32,463 nt of DNA from positions 1-32,463 of the forward strand of contig SDNY01000032.1 of assembly GCA_004524535.1 (NCBI GenBank), in the 5' to 3' direction. The notes under the pieces are model-generated. The model had not been told where the DNA came from, ran no database searches, and saw only the letters and a program-made list of their open reading frames with translations. Made by a program: the position numbers and the translations under genes. Source of the stretch: Promethearchaeota archaeon (GTDB lineage Archaea; Asgardarchaeota; Lokiarchaeia; Sigyniarchaeales; SOKP01). This document shows positions 6,026-31,378 of the stretch, in pieces (positions within the stretch are counted from its first letter, which is position 1; the number at the start of each line of letters is the position of its first letter).

Positions 6026-8104
6026 ATGAACAGAGAAGAATTTGAGCTTATATCCAAAGTGATTGAAACAGGTAATATCGCAAAAATCCAAGAAACGATC
6101 ATATTGGAGGGAGACTTTTTGAAACTAAAGGATTTACACATTCTAAGGGAAAGATTAGATTCTAAAGTTGAAAGCTTTGTATTTCTTGACGCAGAGCATC
6201 CAAACAAACTAAATTTGATTAGAGACCCTAATGTTATTTTGTTTCTGGGAGAAGACAAACTAATTGAGATCTTTCGTAGACACTTAATTATTGAAGATGA
6301 TAATAGAAGGCGGGTAAATTGGGAAATCATTAAGAATATAGAAGCAATTTATTATGAAGCACCAGAGATCCTTAAACAGATTGATTGTCCAGATAAAGAA
6401 TTAAAGCTCAAGAAAATTGAAGAATTGGGAAGAAAAGCCATTGATTTGATAAAACCAATCTTTATTGAACTTATGGATGATAAAGAATTTCGAATTGATC
6501 TTGATGGACACAAAGTAATTTACAATCTATATTTTTTTATTGGAAAAAAGGCTGTTATAGAAGCACTTAAGACAATGAGAGCATGCAAAGGAATTATATT
6601 ATATGGAGATTCTTATTATATTGAATCAAATTTAGGTGACGATATTAATATCGGACTAGGTAGCGATGATTATGATTATCAGAAATTATCAGAAAGAGTA
6701 TTTATGAATTTTTTCAACATTTTTAAAAATATAATCAGCAAAAAGGATGTTGAATTTTCATGGTTCGACAGGATATTTAGCATATTAGGACCGACTTATT
6801 ATGGTCATAAAAAGAATTTTATACTTCAGTACCTAGATGAACTCTTAAATCAAGAAAAGAAAAGATTTATTGAATTAATTCAGGAAGCAGATTATATATT
6901 TAAAAATAGAAATTCAATTAAATTTGCTCATTCTATAGCAAAGCATTTTAAAATAGAAATTGATATTGAAGATAAATTTTCGGACGAAAAGAAAGAACCT
7001 TGGACACCAGAATTCTTTTATTCTTCAGAAATTAATGTATGTAAAAGATGTGGGAAAAAAAGGTGGACTTCCGAATGTTATAGATGTAAAGTATGGATAT
7101 GTAAGGCTTGTGAAGAAGACCATATTAATGAATATCACACAGAGATATGTGAGGAGGACATCAGTTTCTCCAATAATATCGAAGTCTTTAAAGTAAAATT
7201 TTATGAGAATGGTTTATGGGAGTGTACCTGCCCGACATGGGTAAATACAAAAGAAGATTGTGATCATATTGCACAATATAAGAGCCACTTTTTCGATCCT
7301 TCCTTCATTCCTGATAGTTACGACCATTATGATGAATATTCTGATCTTGAACCTCAGATGTTTAAGTTTTCTGAATTGATAAAAGAATATCCCAGATGGA
7401 TTTTGAAATATCTATTCGATAAATGGCGTCGGTCTTGCTCTAAAAGCCAGCTAGCAGAAATACTTGATACAAGTGTATATATGATAAACAAACTTTTGAA
7501 GAAAATAGATGAGTTTCAGGAAAACAGAATTAATTCTATTTACCGTGATGTTGAATCAAATCTTCAAAATAAAGATTTAGAAATTTTATGGCTACCAACT
7601 GAGGCAACATTTGGAGAACTAACCTCACTTCCAGAAATCCCAGAAGATGTTAAATCTATAAAGTTCATAAATCTGGAAGGAAATCGCTTAGAATCCTTGC
7701 CTTCTTCAATTGGTAATTTCACAGCAGTAGAAAAAATTCAATTAAGATTTAATAAATTAAGATATTTACCAGAAGCCATTGGCAAACTTATAACTCTTAA
7801 AAAATTATATATGCAGTATAACCAACTAAGAGAACTTCCAGAATCGTTTGGAAATTTAACTCAATTAGAAAAACTAAAATTAAATAATAATATAATAAGG
7901 ATACTTCCGGAATCATTTGGTAATTTAAAATCACTTAAATATCTTAATCTTTCTAATAATAAATTAATTCGACTTCCCGATTCATTTCATAATTTAAAAT
8001 CACTTGAATATTTAAACTTAAGTTCTAATAAAAACCTCTATATAGAACATCTTATGGAATTCTTTAAAGAGTTAAAAGACAAGGGAGCTAAAATAAAATA
8101 TTAA
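6026..8104 (+). CDS. B-box/SWIM zinc-finger protein with leucine-rich repeats
   Basis: The 692-residue product has an unusual domain order. Residues 1-330 are helical and unassigned. A B-box-type zinc finger follows, with C339-x2-C342-x8-C351-x2-C354-x4-C359-x2-C362-x3-H366-x4-H371. A SWIM-type finger comes next (C400-x-C402-x9-C412-x-H414). Residues about 458-492 look like a helix-turn-helix (SKSQLAEILDTSVYMINKLL). Residues about 540-680 carry leucine-rich repeats of about 23 residues with the L-P-x-S/A-F/I-G-N-L spacing. These are all binding modules and no catalytic motif is seen, so a scaffold or sensor role is likely. The ATG is preceded by AAGGT about 10 nt upstream. The fingers are clear from Cys/His spacing; the overall function is unknown. 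Confidence 0.8.
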   Translation: MNREEFELISKVIETGNIAKIQETIILEGDFLKLKDLHILRERLDSKVESFVFLDAEHPNKLNLIRDPNVILFLGEDKLIEIFRRHLIIEDDNRRRVNWEIIKNIEAIYYEAPEILKQIDCPDKELKLKKIEELGRKAIDLIKPIFIELMDDKEFRIDLDGHKVIYNLYFFIGKKAVIEALKTMRACKGIILYGDSYYIESNLGDDINIGLGSDDYDYQKLSERVFMNFFNIFKNIISKKDVEFSWFDRIFSILGPTYYGHKKNFILQYLDELLNQEKKRFIELIQEADYIFKNRNSIKFAHSIAKHFKIEIDIEDKFSDEKKEPWTPEFFYSSEINVCKRCGKKRWTSECYRCKVWICKACEEDHINEYHTEICEEDISFSNNIEVFKVKFYENGLWECTCPTWVNTKEDCDHIAQYKSHFFDPSFIPDSYDHYDEYSDLEPQMFKFSELIKEYPRWILKYLFDKWRRSCSKSQLAEILDTSVYMINKLLKKIDEFQENRINSIYRDVESNLQNKDLEILWLPTEATFGELTSLPEIPEDVKSIKFINLEGNRLESLPSSIGNFTAVEKIQLRFNKLRYLPEAIGKLITLKKLYMQYNQLRELPESFGNLTQLEKLKLNNNIIRILPESFGNLKSLKYLNLSNNKLIRLPDSFHNLKSLEYLNLSSNKNLYIEHLMEFFKELKDKGAKIKY

Positions 8105-8340: not shown

Positions 8341-9534
8341 ATGTCAAATATTCAGAAGATTAAAGATTTTTTTAAATCAAATGTTATTATTAATGAAATT
8401 AGAGAAGTTTTAGATTTTAAACCGGATACATTATTTGGTATTGATAAATATAATGCCGAAAAGCTTAAAGATTCAAATATTAAAACTATTTCAGATTTAG
8501 CGAATATAGACATCGATAATCCTCCTAAAGTAGATGTTCTACCTCAAATTTTAATTAAATGGATCAAGGTCGCTAAGGTTCTTGAAAAAGCAGTAAAAGA
8601 ACAATTAAAGGCACAAAAGAAACTTTTACTCATAGGATTGGATAACGGTGGCAAAACATCAATTTTAGCCGTTCTCCAAGATAAATTCTCAATTATTAAA
8701 GATCTATTACCTACAAGAGGTGTTTCGAGAGAGAAACTTGACTTCTTCGGATACCCTATCATCAGTTGGGATCTTGGAGGACAGGCGCAATACAGAGAAA
8801 AACTTTACTTTAACAAACCTGAATTATTTTTTGGAGAAGCAGATCTTATTCTATACGTTCTTGATGTACAAGATATTACAAGACTTGAAGAAGCGGCTAA
8901 TTACTTTAGTCAAGTATTAGACATTTTATTGGATTTAAAGGAGTTTCCCCCAATTTTAATAATTTTAAATAAATCAGATCAAGATGTTAGGCGAACCTTG
9001 ACGTGGCAGAAAAATGTAGATGTTATTAAAAGTAAATTTGATGTTATTCTTGACAGACATGAAAAGTTCAAAGCTGAATATTGTGATACTTCAATTTTTC
9101 AAAAAGAGACAATAATGCAAATGTTCAGTAATGCATTAATGAAAGTTTCCGAAACTTCTGAAATCGTAGAAAACATTCTTGAGGATTTTTCAACTCAAAT
9201 TGAAGGGAGAGCATTAAGTTTGATCTCAATGGATGGATTAATTTTTGGAAATTATTTTAAAATAAAAACAGATGAGATATTAGTTAATAATTCAGCCTTG
9301 TTATTACAAACGCTTTCCAACTTTCATAATTCTCTTGGTTTACTCAGGGAAAAGAGTATATCTTTAGAACTTCCTTTAAATAATTTAACAATTCGCGGAG
9401 AAAAGTTATTTGAATATTCTGAGTTAGAGATTCCAGTTTACCTATGGCTCCTCTCGGATAACCCAGAAAAATTAGATGAAAAATTAGATTTTTTTAGATC
9501 GCAACTGCTACCATTAATTAATTTGTTCATTTAA
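8341..9534 (+). CDS. ARF-like small GTPase with N-terminal helix-hairpin-helix region
   Basis: This 397-residue protein has an ARF/SAR-type GTPase core inside a larger chain. Residues about 28-60 look like a helix-hairpin-helix unit (FGIDKYNAEKLKDSNIKTIS), similar in style to the N-terminal domain of RadA. The GTPase core follows: P-loop GLDNGGKTS at 99-107, a switch I region PTRGVS near 124-129, WDLGGQ at 143-148, and NKSD at 210-213. Residues about 275-397 form an alpha/beta region that may be roadblock- or longin-like. Canonical ARF proteins are ~180 residues, so both ends are extra. Ancestral membrane or signalling GTPases of this kind are abundant in Asgard archaea. The partner is unknown. 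Confidence 0.85.
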   Translation: MSNIQKIKDFFKSNVIINEIREVLDFKPDTLFGIDKYNAEKLKDSNIKTISDLANIDIDNPPKVDVLPQILIKWIKVAKVLEKAVKEQLKAQKKLLLIGLDNGGKTSILAVLQDKFSIIKDLLPTRGVSREKLDFFGYPIISWDLGGQAQYREKLYFNKPELFFGEADLILYVLDVQDITRLEEAANYFSQVLDILLDLKEFPPILIILNKSDQDVRRTLTWQKNVDVIKSKFDVILDRHEKFKAEYCDTSIFQKETIMQMFSNALMKVSETSEIVENILEDFSTQIEGRALSLISMDGLIFGNYFKIKTDEILVNNSALLLQTLSNFHNSLGLLREKSISLELPLNNLTIRGEKLFEYSELEIPVYLWLLSDNPEKLDEKLDFFRSQLLPLINLFI

Positions 9535-9859: not shown

Positions 9860-12241
9860 TTAGCCTTCTCGGCACAATCTTTTCAGTAAGGTAGGATCAA
9901 TTATCTCTTTTGGTTCCCAATTTTTACTTTTCAAATATTCCTGTATTTCAGACTTCAAATTGATTGGAATGTCAGCTTCAACGCGAATGTATTTTTCTAA
10001 ATCGGTTGGAAGGTCAACGCCTTTATATTTTCGTTCTAAGTCAATCCAATGAGATAATTTTATCATACGTCCTTTGGAATTATCAGCTGGCCTCAAACAC
10101 ATTTTAGCAACTAAACAAATTGCCTGTTCGATAGATTCGGCGGTTGTTAATAGGTGTTCAGGACAAGGACTAACTAAATGGTCGCCAGTGCCATCTCGTG
10201 CATTCCATACTTTCCATGTATCCTCATCATCAGTTCTACCTATATACATACGTCTGTATTCAGCTGAATGGGGTCCACATACTGCTGGAATACCCATTCC
10301 ATTACAACTACTTGCTATACTTGCTGCTTTTTGCGACATTGCGCCCCAGGCAACTCCACAAGCTCCAACTCGATTTAAGATATAATCCGCTATTTCTTCA
10401 TAATTACCTCTTAAAGGACGTCGAGCAAATATATTTGCAACTTTAATTGCCGCACCATTTATATGTGGATTTGAGACACATGAGCCTACATTAACTAACC
10501 CTCCTCGGTCGAAATCACCAGGATATCTATCATATAATGTCTTACCTTCTTCGTCTTTTACAAGACCTATATCCATAGCACCACAGCCAGACACTACAAC
10601 AATATAATTCCTATTGCAGAATTCTTCAGCCATTGTATATAATTCTTGGATTTCTTTTCCATAATTGGCACAACCGATAATGGCTACAATTCCAGGAATT
10701 TCTCCTAAGACGATCGGAGCCCCTACATTTCGAATTTCAGTATCCTGAATGGGACCACGCCCTACTCTTAGGTTGAATTTTTCGTTTCTAATCTTTTCAC
10801 GCCCTGCATACATAATTAGAGTGAGAGGTGAAACATCTTTCATGCATTCGGCTTCACATCTACCACAATCTAAGCATGCATCAAATGTGTCTGATAATAT
10901 GGAAAAATCTCCGTCCTTTGCAGCATTTACACCTGCAACTAGTGGAAGATCATTAGGACAATTTCTCTGGCAATTTCCGCAGCCATTACATCTCATTGCC
11001 ATATCTATACATCCTTGCTCATCTGGAACTGCGCTTTTACTCTTTCTAATTGGCCTTACCTTTATTGCCGTTTCTACTGCAACTTGCCCCGCTTTTACGG
11101 GATCTAAAATTAATACACCTTTAGCTTTTCCACTAACTAAATCGTCTACAATTTCATCAACCGGATCATCAGTTCTATCTGGTAATCCATTCATATTTTT
11201 CTCATTTGAAGCGATAAATGGTGCATTTACTAGTTGCGCTTGTTCAAAGCTTCTCAAGTTAACGCATTGCTCATCGACCATCACTACATCTGCTAACCCA
11301 GAACGAATGAAATGCATTTGACGGGCGAGAGAACCAACAACTTTAGCTCCACTGTAATATCTTGTTAAATCCAAAGCAGTACAACAGATTGCTCCTACAT
11401 CAACTTTGCTTTCATATCCCTTCTCCCGCATATAATCAACTAATTCGATTCCAGGTGCTACATTATGGCCAATCATTAAAATTGTAGCCTTATTTTCCGT
11501 ATCTAAAGTACCCATTCCCAATTCAACAATAGGTACATCAGGATCTCCTACAGGAAAACCATATGCAGCAATTTGAACGGCATCAGCTATTTCCATTCCA
11601 ACAGCATCACATAATCCCGCTAAGAAACTTTTTGATTCATAATCTAAATAACTTGATTCTTGACCAGTATGACCCGCCGCAAGAAGATGAGTAATATTGA
11701 ATTGAACCCATTTCATTGCTTCTTCCAAATCTTCTAACGTTTCTGGTTTCATCCCTACTATCAATCGTGTACATGGCATTTCTACAGCAATATTGTTTCC
11801 AAAATTTATTGGGACATTTCCGTATTTTTCTTTGAGCCAGTGAAGCAAGTGATCTCCGTGAGCGCTGTGGCACGAGGCCCCGATACAGCACGCAATCTCT
11901 ACTATCTTTGCACATGCCGTTTCTATATTAATACCACAAGCCCCTGTTCTTCCCTTTGAGAGGTTGCATTTACCGAAGGTACAAAGGCAACACATATCAC
12001 AAATTTACCCAATTATTCCAACAGAATAATTGTTTGGCATGTAATATGGCTTGTACCTCTCCATTAATTTGAAAAACCAATTTCGCAATGTTGGAATATG
12101 GGGCATTGGAGTTGGACCCATTGGCTCCCATTCAGTCTCGTCTCCGAAGCTTACTTTTCCTGTCGTTAATTCGAAGCCCTTAATACTTCCTAGTGGGCCA
12201 GAGTAAGAATCTATTTTTATTTTTGCGCCTTTTTTACTCAT
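9860..12241 (-). CDS. cdhA: CO dehydrogenase/acetyl-CoA synthase (ACDS) alpha subunit, gene interrupted by a 30-nt insert
   Basis: CdhA is the Ni-Fe-S CO dehydrogenase subunit of the archaeal acetyl-CoA decarbonylase/synthase complex in the Wood-Ljungdahl pathway. The chain shows the N-terminal cluster motif CCLCTFGKC, HSAHGDHLLH, two ferredoxin-like sets (CNGCGNCQRNC and CLDCGRCEAEC), and the C-cluster region around IGCANYGKEI and SGCGAMDIG. As read directly, an in-frame TAA at 12005-12007 splits it into 78 codons and a 711-codon remainder in the same frame. Dropping 12004-12033 joins 208 nt to 2144 nt and gives 783 residues, the usual CdhA length. The junction then reads YYMP-ICDMCC, matching the P-x-C-D-x-C-C pattern I recall in homologs. 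No other cdh gene lies in the window. The start MSKKGAKIKI has no clear Shine-Dalgarno sequence. Confidence 0.93.
12004..12033 (-). other. Candidate 30-nt BHB mini-intron inside cdhA
   Basis: On the minus strand the insert carries a perfect hairpin: CAATTATTC (12032-12024), loop TGTTG, GAATAATTG (12018-12010). Next to it, exon bases TGCC (12039-12036) pair with insert bases GGTA (12009-12006), giving four pairs including one G-U. An AAA bulge (12035-12033) separates TGCC from the hairpin. AATT (12005-12002) separates GGTA from the outer helix. The outer exon-exon helix is CATATTACA (12048-12040) with TGTGATATG (12001-11993), nine pairs including one G-U. Cutting AA^A and AA^TT, after the second nucleotide of each bulge, removes exactly 30 nt and restores the frame. 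This is the archaeal BHB layout, with the second bulge at 4 nt (or 3 nt plus a one-base bulge). Ends are ambiguous by 2 nt because AA/AAA flanks both sides. Confidence 0.8.
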
Positions 12242-13218: not shown

Positions 13219-14241
13219 TTAAATTAGGTCAAATATCATTTCAGTTACGTTGTTAATATTGAAATTCGTCTTAACTGATGTAAATAGTAACTTCCATTCT
13301 CTATTGTCGATTTTTTCGAATTCAAAATATTCAATAATTTCCTTGGTAAGTCTACCAATTTTTTCTTTATTATTCTGAACGGAATGATCAAATAAATCGA
13401 TTTTATTAGCTAAAATCAATAAGGGAATTCCAAATAATTCGTATCTATTTATAATTTTCCAAAATTCTCTTTTTGACTCTTCGAATCTTATTTGATTTGC
13501 GACATCAATCATAAATATTATAATATTAGATTCTTGAAGTCCGATTAACCATTTATTCCTGAAAGAGAGTTGTCCTGGCATGTCCCATAAAGCTAAAATC
13601 CCTCTAGATTCATCCTGAATGTATTCTATATTAAATTTTCTCGTCGGAACAAAATAATTATCATTATATTTGCCCGTTTTTATCCTTCTTATTAAAGATG
13701 TCTTTCCTACTTCATCTAAACCAAAAAGAAATACCTTATTGAACGAATCATGGTAATGAAATTGAATTTCAGGATGTCTTTCCACATATTCATCTCCATA
13801 TCTACGAATATCAATAAACACTGTAATTAAGAAATTTTCGATTTCAATTTCATCTTTAAATGTACATATTTTTTCGATATTTAACAATTCGTTTAATAGT
13901 TCTTCAAATATGTCTTTATAATCGTAGGGATTATCTTCTTTATCAAGAATTAATCCAATAATGATCTTCCCGTTAATGCAAGTTGTATAAATATTTAAAC
14001 CGTCCATTATTTGAGGGACTGGAGTATCAATTAAATAAAGATAATTAGCGTTGTTGGACTTGCTAATTGATTTACGCGTTCTATATCTATGGATAAGATC
14101 GCCATGATCATGTCCATAAATTATTTTGCTGAGTTGATCTTTATCATCTATCGTAATAATGTCATTTGGATAACTGTAAATATTGAGTTGATCCAAATCT
14201 TGGAAATTTTTACCCTTAAGAAGAAAAATGTTGTATAACAA
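13219..14241 (-). CDS. ARF/Rag-type GTPase with N-terminal longin-like domain
   Basis: This 340-residue protein has two parts. Residues 1-155 alternate beta strands and helices (YNIFLLKGKNF, NYLYLIDTPVPQIMD, GKIIIGLILD) in a longin/roadblock-like manner. Residues 168-340 are a small GTPase: GLDEVGKTS at 174-182, PTRKFN near 199-204, WDMPGQ at 229-234, NKID at 279-282 and TSVKT at 321-325. The Gly-Leu-Asp P-loop and Pro-Thr switch I are ARF-like, while the size and fusion recall Rag/Gtr proteins paired with roadblock or longin partners. In eukaryotes such pairs act on membranes. Here one chain may carry both GTPase and its platform. No lipidation motif or membrane segment is seen. Confidence 0.8.
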   Translation of the reverse strand: MLYNIFLLKGKNFQDLDQLNIYSYPNDIITIDDKDQLSKIIYGHDHGDLIHRYRTRKSISKSNNANYLYLIDTPVPQIMDGLNIYTTCINGKIIIGLILDKEDNPYDYKDIFEELLNELLNIEKICTFKDEIEIENFLITVFIDIRRYGDEYVERHPEIQFHYHDSFNKVFLFGLDEVGKTSLIRRIKTGKYNDNYFVPTRKFNIEYIQDESRGILALWDMPGQLSFRNKWLIGLQESNIIIFMIDVANQIRFEESKREFWKIINRYELFGIPLLILANKIDLFDHSVQNNKEKIGRLTKEIIEYFEFEKIDNREWKLLFTSVKTNFNINNVTEMIFDLI

Positions 14242-30557: not shown

Positions 30558-30775
30558 TTTTTTTCTATTATTTTATGTATATAATATTAAAATTATTCAC
30601 TTAGTAATTTAAATAATTTCATATTAAATAAAGAGATTGCAGATTCATTATTTTAAATCAGACATTGATATTTAGACCAAAAAGGCTATTATATTGAAAA
30701 ATTCACATATTTGAATAAATAAAAGTTCTTAAGTTATTCAAAGGGTTAATAAATTATCCAAGATAATTCTACTTG

Positions 30776-31378
30776 ATGGAAAAAAAGGAAAACATTCAGA
30801 TTTCGCTTGATGATATAAACGAAGATGATATACCAGCCAAGATTCCAGCTAAATTTATTAATTCGAGAATTGTTATTTTTAATCCTCTTTATGCCTCTTA
30901 CTTATATGTGAAGGAAAAGTTTTTTGGCTCTCCCCTTGGAATAAGTAAGCCCCGTTTAGAATATTTCCATAAACCTTCAGAGTTGTCTGTTATTGAGGCT
31001 TATTACCTATTAGAAAAAGGTAAGATTACTATTTTTGATGTTAAAAGAGAGAAGGATCTTAATGCTAAGGAATTTTTTGAAATTGCCAAACAAATACACC
31101 ATAAATTTGAGGAAAAATACGTAATTTATAAAGATTTAAGAGAAAAAGGATATATTCCTCGACCAGGGTTGAAATTTGGAGCAGATTTTGTAGTATATAA
31201 GAAAGGCCCCGGATTAGAACACTCTCCCTTCATTGTACACGTATTACCTCATGATTCTAAAATTAGTGCAATTGATATGGTCAGAGCTGGCAGATTAGCT
31301 ACATCAGTTAGAAAAAAATTTGTTATCGCAAATCCCCAAACTATAAACTACTATTTCTTTACGTGGTTTAAGCCGTAA
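30776..31378 (+). CDS. endA: tRNA-splicing endonuclease EndA
   Basis: This 200-residue protein is the archaeal tRNA intron endonuclease, which recognises the bulge-helix-bulge motif and cuts within both bulges, leaving 2',3'-cyclic phosphate and 5'-OH ends. The catalytic domain holds YKDLREKGYIPRPGLKFGAD, the catalytic Tyr at 141 (DFVVY), His at 149 (EHSPF) and Lys at 180 (ATSVRKKF). The length fits the short, homotetramer-type enzyme, which in other archaea prefers strict 3-4-3 motifs. A TTG three bases upstream of the ATG is in frame, but ATG is the better start. Its presence makes cutting of the cdhA BHB-like element possible in the same cell. Confidence 0.95.
   Translation: MEKKENIQISLDDINEDDIPAKIPAKFINSRIVIFNPLYASYLYVKEKFFGSPLGISKPRLEYFHKPSELSVIEAYYLLEKGKITIFDVKREKDLNAKEFFEIAKQIHHKFEEKYVIYKDLREKGYIPRPGLKFGADFVVYKKGPGLEHSPFIVHVLPHDSKISAIDMVRAGRLATSVRKKFVIANPQTINYYFFTWFKP

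Follow-up and report, generated by a model that had tools for sequence, protein, structure and literature searches.

The closest described system is the bulge-helix-bulge (BHB) intron in the cbf5 pre-mRNA of Crenarchaeota (Watanabe 2002; Yokobori 2009, PMC2738675). Within coding sequence, a BHB intron had previously been reported for one archaeal gene only, crenarchaeal cbf5 (PMC2738675; PMC7714728). A 2020 study knew of cbf5 as the only gene with a BHB mRNA intron and added a BHB site in a 5' UTR, that of the HVO_1309 mRNA leader of Haloferax (PMC7714728). Relaxed BHB motifs and pre-mRNA splicing have been associated with a splicing endonuclease (EndA) of the alpha-beta heterotetrameric type (PMC2738675, PMC12397907). 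Introns in tRNA genes are abundant in other Asgard lineages (PMC11291895). Putative 12-bp introns are recorded for one archaeal virus, and as they are cited their splicing was never shown (Peng et al., cited in PMC2738675).

The Lokiarchaeial introns described here resemble the cbf5 introns in several respects. They are short (16-44 bp in cbf5), they lie in protein genes, their BHB is often relaxed, the cuts fall between bulge bases 2 and 3, an EndA heterotetramer is predicted for the host, and gain and loss are lineage-specific. They differ in phylum and in genes. The cbf5 introns sit at a conserved catalytic codon of that gene, whereas the present ones lie in other genes, with several interrupted genes per genome and up to two introns per gene. 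Further differences are a strong preference for 30 nt and foreign flanking tracts that suggest transfer. Archaeal tRNA introns share the BHB architecture, whereas cdhA-type introns break reading frames and have no tRNA context. The HVO_1309 leader is likewise an mRNA substrate of the splicing endonuclease, but its BHB site is in the 5' UTR and the cdhA-type introns are in coding sequence. The viral introns are likewise very short and in protein-coding genes. Our search of the open-access literature, with subscription papers and preprints outside its scope, returned no report on cdhA together with archaeal introns, in agreement with the original prediction that no cdhA intron had been described, and no paper that treats mRNA, introns and the splicing endonuclease together in Lokiarchaeota. 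New here are the lineage that hosts the introns, the interrupted genes, the several introns per genome, the 20-nt exon and the signs of horizontal spread; priority for the BHB intron finding cannot be claimed with certainty.

The window is the whole 32,463-nt stretch of Lokiarchaeial DNA that was analysed. Its cdhA gene encodes the CODH/ACS alpha subunit and is the only cdhA copy in the genome. The frame from 12241 to 9860 on the minus strand contains a single internal stop, the TAA in Table 1. A family-model search against TIGR00314 scored the exon-2 part at 976 bits and the gene read across the stop at 1047 bits. The stop ahead of the Cys motif, with the frame continuing in register behind it, was found where it had been predicted. 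Cutting each bulge after its second base excises 12033-12004, 30 nt, joins the codon A/TT (phase 1), and yields the correct mature CdhA sequence (YYMP-I-CDMCC) in a single stop-free frame of 783 aa; the predicted product P-I-C-D-M-C-C was thus recovered. Two small-GTPase-like genes (8341-9534 and 13219-14241) lie near cdhA in the window, as does a protein (6026-8104) with a leucine-rich-repeat-like C-terminal part, assigned from LRR effector model matches.

Table 1. Positions in the window of the cdhA gene, its BHB parts and the endA gene.
Feature	Position	Strand	Remarks
cdhA, CODH/ACS alpha subunit gene	9860..12241	-	two exons; 783 aa once spliced
cdhA exon 1	12034..12241	-	208 nt = 69 codons + 1 base
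cdhA intron ACAATTATTCTGTTGGAATAATTGGGTAAA	12004..12033	-	30 nt
cdhA exon 2	9860..12003	-	
In-frame TAA within the cdhA intron	12005..12007	-	codon 79
Exon-exon helix, 5' strand CATATTACA	12040..12048	-	9 bp with TGTGATATG
Exon-exon helix, 3' strand TGTGATATG	11993..12001	-	
Central 4-bp helix, exon strand TGCC	12036..12039	-	pairs with GGTA
Central 4-bp helix, intron strand GGTA	12006..12009	-	
5' bulge AAA	12033..12035	-	cut AA/A
3' bulge AATT	12002..12005	-	cut AA/TT; canonical length + 1 base
Intron hairpin CAATTATTC/GAATAATTG	12010..12032	-	9 bp, loop TGTTG
Exon tract foreign to sister G107	11813..12061	-	codons -8 to +64 around the intron
endA, catalytic tRNA-splicing endonuclease subunit	30773..31378	+	TIGR00324 118 bits

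The hairpin, the central helix, both bulges and the exon-exon helix had all been placed exactly by the original prediction, and the RNAfold minimum is precisely this BHB fold (-27.6 kcal/mol over 83 nt, z = -4.5, matched by none of 200 shuffles). The central 4-bp helix stands between two bulges on opposite strands. Bulges of 3 nt (5') and 4 nt (3') represent a relaxed form; related introns mostly have 3 + 3. When both strands of the window were scanned for strict BHBs, the cdhA insert came out best at -18.1 kcal/mol, with the runner-up at -11.6. None of 400 dinucleotide-shuffled windows contained a comparable BHB (-14 kcal/mol or below).

A family-model search that reads through stops was run on 228 genomes of the phylum. 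The cdhA genes of the window's genome (G000), G125 and G114 have in-frame TAA codons, and those of G117 and G128, the latter a partial gene, have frame breaks. Asgard archaea and Bathyarchaeota were among the groups in a tblastn survey of cdhA loci, about 150 in all, which found no frame-interrupting insert outside five Lokiarchaeial genomes, and all of the inserts fall within codons 43-77. Alignment with lokiarchaeal cdhA genes, which had been proposed as a check, shows that most are without an insert and that relatives from the same family have different inserts, placed at this site or at two further ones. At the codon that precedes CDMCC (site A) the insert measures 30 nt in G000, 32 nt in G125 and 29 nt in G114; G117 and G128 have 34 nt there with the junction shifted one base further. 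Site B lies one 20-nt exon downstream of site A and holds 31 nt in G125 and G114, and site C holds 32 nt in G117. The summed intron length per complete gene is always a multiple of three (30, 63, 60 and 66). The central helix at site A covaries across three genomes (TGCC/GGTA, TGCC/GGCA and TGCC/GGTG). The site A hairpins differ wholly in sequence among genomes, yet they are still paired, in the same BHB register. A blind BHB scan recovered seven of the eight cdhA introns with protein-restoring cuts; for 36 intronless cdhA genes the median was no match and the best was -11.6. Two other cdhA irregularities were seen. A Bathyarchaeota gene (bin30, L126) has a lone in-frame TAG (DLTGD*RGACG) and no insert, which is either a point stop or a recoded codon such as pyrrolysine. 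A second cdhA-like copy in another genome (L156, G085:C185) is without residues 63-135, the N-terminal Cys motif included.

Introns of this kind extend beyond cdhA, a set that was out of view for the original prediction. Five were found in the window's own genome, in four genes (cdhA, cdhC, cdhD and EF-2). Its cdhC (C32, L201) has a 30-nt intron within the Cys motif YGC-V-LCQ and a 29-nt one at DPKGP-I-YEVP, and its cdhD (C8, L172) and EF-2 (C129, L223) each carry one 30-nt BHB intron with an in-frame TAA. cdhC is also interrupted in G115, G142, G120 and G123, and cdhD in G140, G110, G123, G116 and G120. In the last of these (L227, G120:C86) cdhD is broken at codon 232/233, the intron site of G000, by about 29 nt to which no register was assigned. 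EF-2 is interrupted in G000 and at least 11 other genomes. Four sites in the gene are affected, and two of these fall within the P-loop AHIDHGKT. Interruptions of Cbf5 were found in 0 of 65 family genomes, so the search method does not itself generate interruptions.

Thirty-two introns from 19 genomes were resolved to their register, at three sites in cdhA, three in cdhC, three in cdhD and four in EF-2. Twenty are exactly 30 nt long, and the others measure 29-36 nt. The central helix in the exact splicing register has 4/4 pairs in 27 introns and 3/4 in the other five, where each intron was assigned the best of its protein-compatible registers, of which there are one to five. Among random deletions in genes of this kind, 2.4% have a complete central helix, and the binomial probability of the observed number is about 1e-19 even when five registers per intron are allowed. 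Seventeen of the 30-nt introns align gap-free. Their common 13-pair structure is 92.8% paired compared to 55.8% after shuffling, its covariation is 0.919 compared to 0.234, and double changes occur in 13/13 pairs. Sliding the registers by 1-3 bases lowers pairing to 34-43%. The exon-exon helix is weak (0-3 bp) in most of the relatives' introns, and the BHB motif is often relaxed.

Bypass elements resemble short hairpin inserts in coding sequence. The ribosome could hop over the insert, as in the translational bypass of T4 gene 60 or the byps of yeast mitochondria, with the hairpin as the hop signal and the RNA unspliced, and the present inserts are indeed short hairpins within coding sequence. 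A hop requires matching take-off and landing codons and moves in whole-codon steps, whereas many inserts permit one protein-compatible register only, some split a codon (site D of cdhC in the window's genome is unique and phase 1), and those of 29, 31, 32 and 34 nt shift the frame. Matched take-off and landing codons were absent, several inserts having unique registers and split codons. Hopping also does not predict the 4-bp helix that stands at the exact EndA register in 27/32 inserts. We regard bypass as very improbable.

Slightly less probable still is that cdhA is a decaying pseudogene, or that the insert arose through faulty assembly or sequencing. All sequences come from metagenome assemblies (of several independent projects), the stop codon sits in a MAG contig, and a palindromic insert could mimic an assembly artefact. 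The exons tell against this. Relative to the sister gene in G107, exon 1 has a dN/dS of 0.057 and exon 2 one of 0.086, and other pairs of intron-bearing and intronless cdhA genes give 0.02-0.08 where dS is unsaturated. Purifying selection acts on the two cdhA exons as on a single protein (dN/dS 0.02-0.09 on either side of the insert), and a pseudogene or a start at an internal ATG is unlikely because both parts are kept under such constraint. cdhA is, moreover, a single-copy metabolic gene, inserts of like form and differing sequence occur in independent assemblies and in the essential EF-2, and the inserts covary strongly. Decay or error is in effect refuted.

Readthrough or recoding of the stop, or a restart at the internal ATG at 11995 to give a 711-aa CdhA, is equally improbable, even though an ORF caller returns the 711-aa frame. 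Exon 1 and the remainder of the gene are equally strongly conserved, and the insert is placed at the Cys motif. Readthrough cannot explain the two relatives in which two frame-breaking introns are split by a 20-nt exon. TAA, TAG and TGA are all found among the inserts, and with the frameshifts this means that no single reassigned stop codon explains them. A group I or group II self-splicing intron was rejected, as the core needs more than 200 nt and the cdhA intron has 30.

The splicing machinery is encoded in the window's genome. The closest solved structure to the window EndA is 3p1z chain B, and the positions of the active-site Tyr, His and Lys, which we take to be the catalytic residues, are conserved in the alignment. 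3p1z is presumably the enzyme of Aeropyrum pernix, a host that splices cbf5. The window EndA is likely the enzyme that cuts the cdhA intron. A second EndA paralog on contig C84 has lost the His. The genome thus encodes a catalytic and a second EndA-type subunit, and the two paralogs suggest an alpha-beta heterotetramer. RtcB is also encoded. Several tRNAs of this genome are about 100 nt long; tRNA-Arg(TCG) and tRNA-Pro(TGG) contain BHB introns of 29 and 28 nt, respectively, each with a central helix of 4 bp and a stem of 7-8 bp, and ARAGORN accepts both tRNAs after intron removal.

The window's genome was covered by family-model searches and by sampled stretches of about 350 kb. In this sample, a strict energy-based scan for BHBs gave no further convincing mRNA intron; it misses relaxed introns and left the cdhD intron on a scanned stretch unreported. 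A de novo scan of about 385 kb for BHBs that join open reading frames recovered cdhA, cdhD and EF-2, plus seven weak, unconfirmed candidates. When 352 kb were searched with a covariance model of these introns, no new match rose above noise, and the tRNA loci of the genome gave no match. The whole-genome run of the model scored 150 of 7,904 candidates and missed known introns. Two extra covariance-model matches (L244 and L245) were rejected as introns, as they interrupt no frame.

The distribution of the cdhA introns is sporadic. The five intron-bearing genes occupy five places in the CdhA tree, their nearest relatives are intronless, and well-supported branches force at least four intron changes. 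The window cdhA is nearly identical to that of the sister G107 everywhere outside codons -8 to +64, where the two differ strongly. Over codons -12 to 24 it has 16/108 differences compared to 20/678 (p = 4e-6), and the worst 36-codon window is up to 31% different. G125 shows 27/108 compared to 53/678 differences from its own sister at the intron region (p = 1e-6), and is identical to the distant G114 over 19 codons that span the cdhA introns. EF-2 of G000 and G107 follows the same pattern as cdhA, with 30% compared to 5.4% difference (p = 1e-8). The EF-2 genes of G111 and G116 have diverged, yet they share the same intron, and the sequence next to it is identical as well. Codon patterns in cdhC are only partly usable owing to indels.

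Sporadic introns and exon tracts foreign to the sister gene suggest horizontal spread. From these comparisons we infer that the introns move between species by recombination with short exon tracts, and the cdhA tract was probably transferred together with its intron. Part of the flank similarity could instead reflect selection for RNA structure, because exon bases pair around the introns. The diverged, intronless cdhA genes of G106 and G107 (L044 and L045) share an identical 34-codon tract exactly at the intron site. This tract suggests local recombination or intron loss, and it fits the expectation if loss uses the same route as gain. A LAGLIDADG search of the genome gave six matches elsewhere, none linked to cdhA, and thus no homing enzyme for cdhA; homing as a route for the cdhA introns is speculation. 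The six matches (L163-L168) are to LAGLIDADG_3 in long ORFs, which are likely inteins or homing endonucleases.

We put the probability that the cdhA insert is an archaeal BHB pre-mRNA intron removed by the tRNA-splicing machinery at roughly 0.93. The original prediction of a BHB mini-intron is by far the best explanation, as judged by the exon selection, the introns of relatives at the same site, the 20-nt exons, and the EndA, RtcB and intron-bearing tRNAs. In the cdhA transcript, the 30 nt would fold as a hairpin on the 4-bp helix formed with the end of exon 1, EndA would cut each bulge after the second base, and RtcB would ligate the exons. The spliced mRNA would then encode an intact CdhA that includes the N-terminal Fe-S cysteine motif. 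We infer cutting, ligation and the route of spread from sequence. The cdhA intron would belong to a recurrent class of mRNA introns of about 30 nt in a Lokiarchaeial family (cdhA, cdhC, cdhD and EF-2), usually placed in conserved motifs, sporadic among species, and probably spread at least in part by recombination with flanking exons.

We consider it reasonably probable that BHB introns of about 30 nt are recurrent and horizontally moving in one Asgard lineage, where they interrupt core-gene mRNAs (for CODH/ACS subunits and EF-2) and make both central metabolism and translation dependent on mRNA splicing by the tRNA machinery. In these close relatives of eukaryotes, BHB introns would then lie in at least four genes, within function-critical motifs that include the P-loop of EF-2. 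Gene callers truncate or split these key Lokiarchaeial genes, and the Wood-Ljungdahl pathway or EF-2 can be overlooked where metabolism is reconstructed from intact ORFs. The sporadic introns with foreign flanks offer a testable case of intron gain in action. If this reading is true, pre-mRNA splicing would be routine, and probably essential, in an Asgard lineage, independent of the ancestry of the spliceosome.
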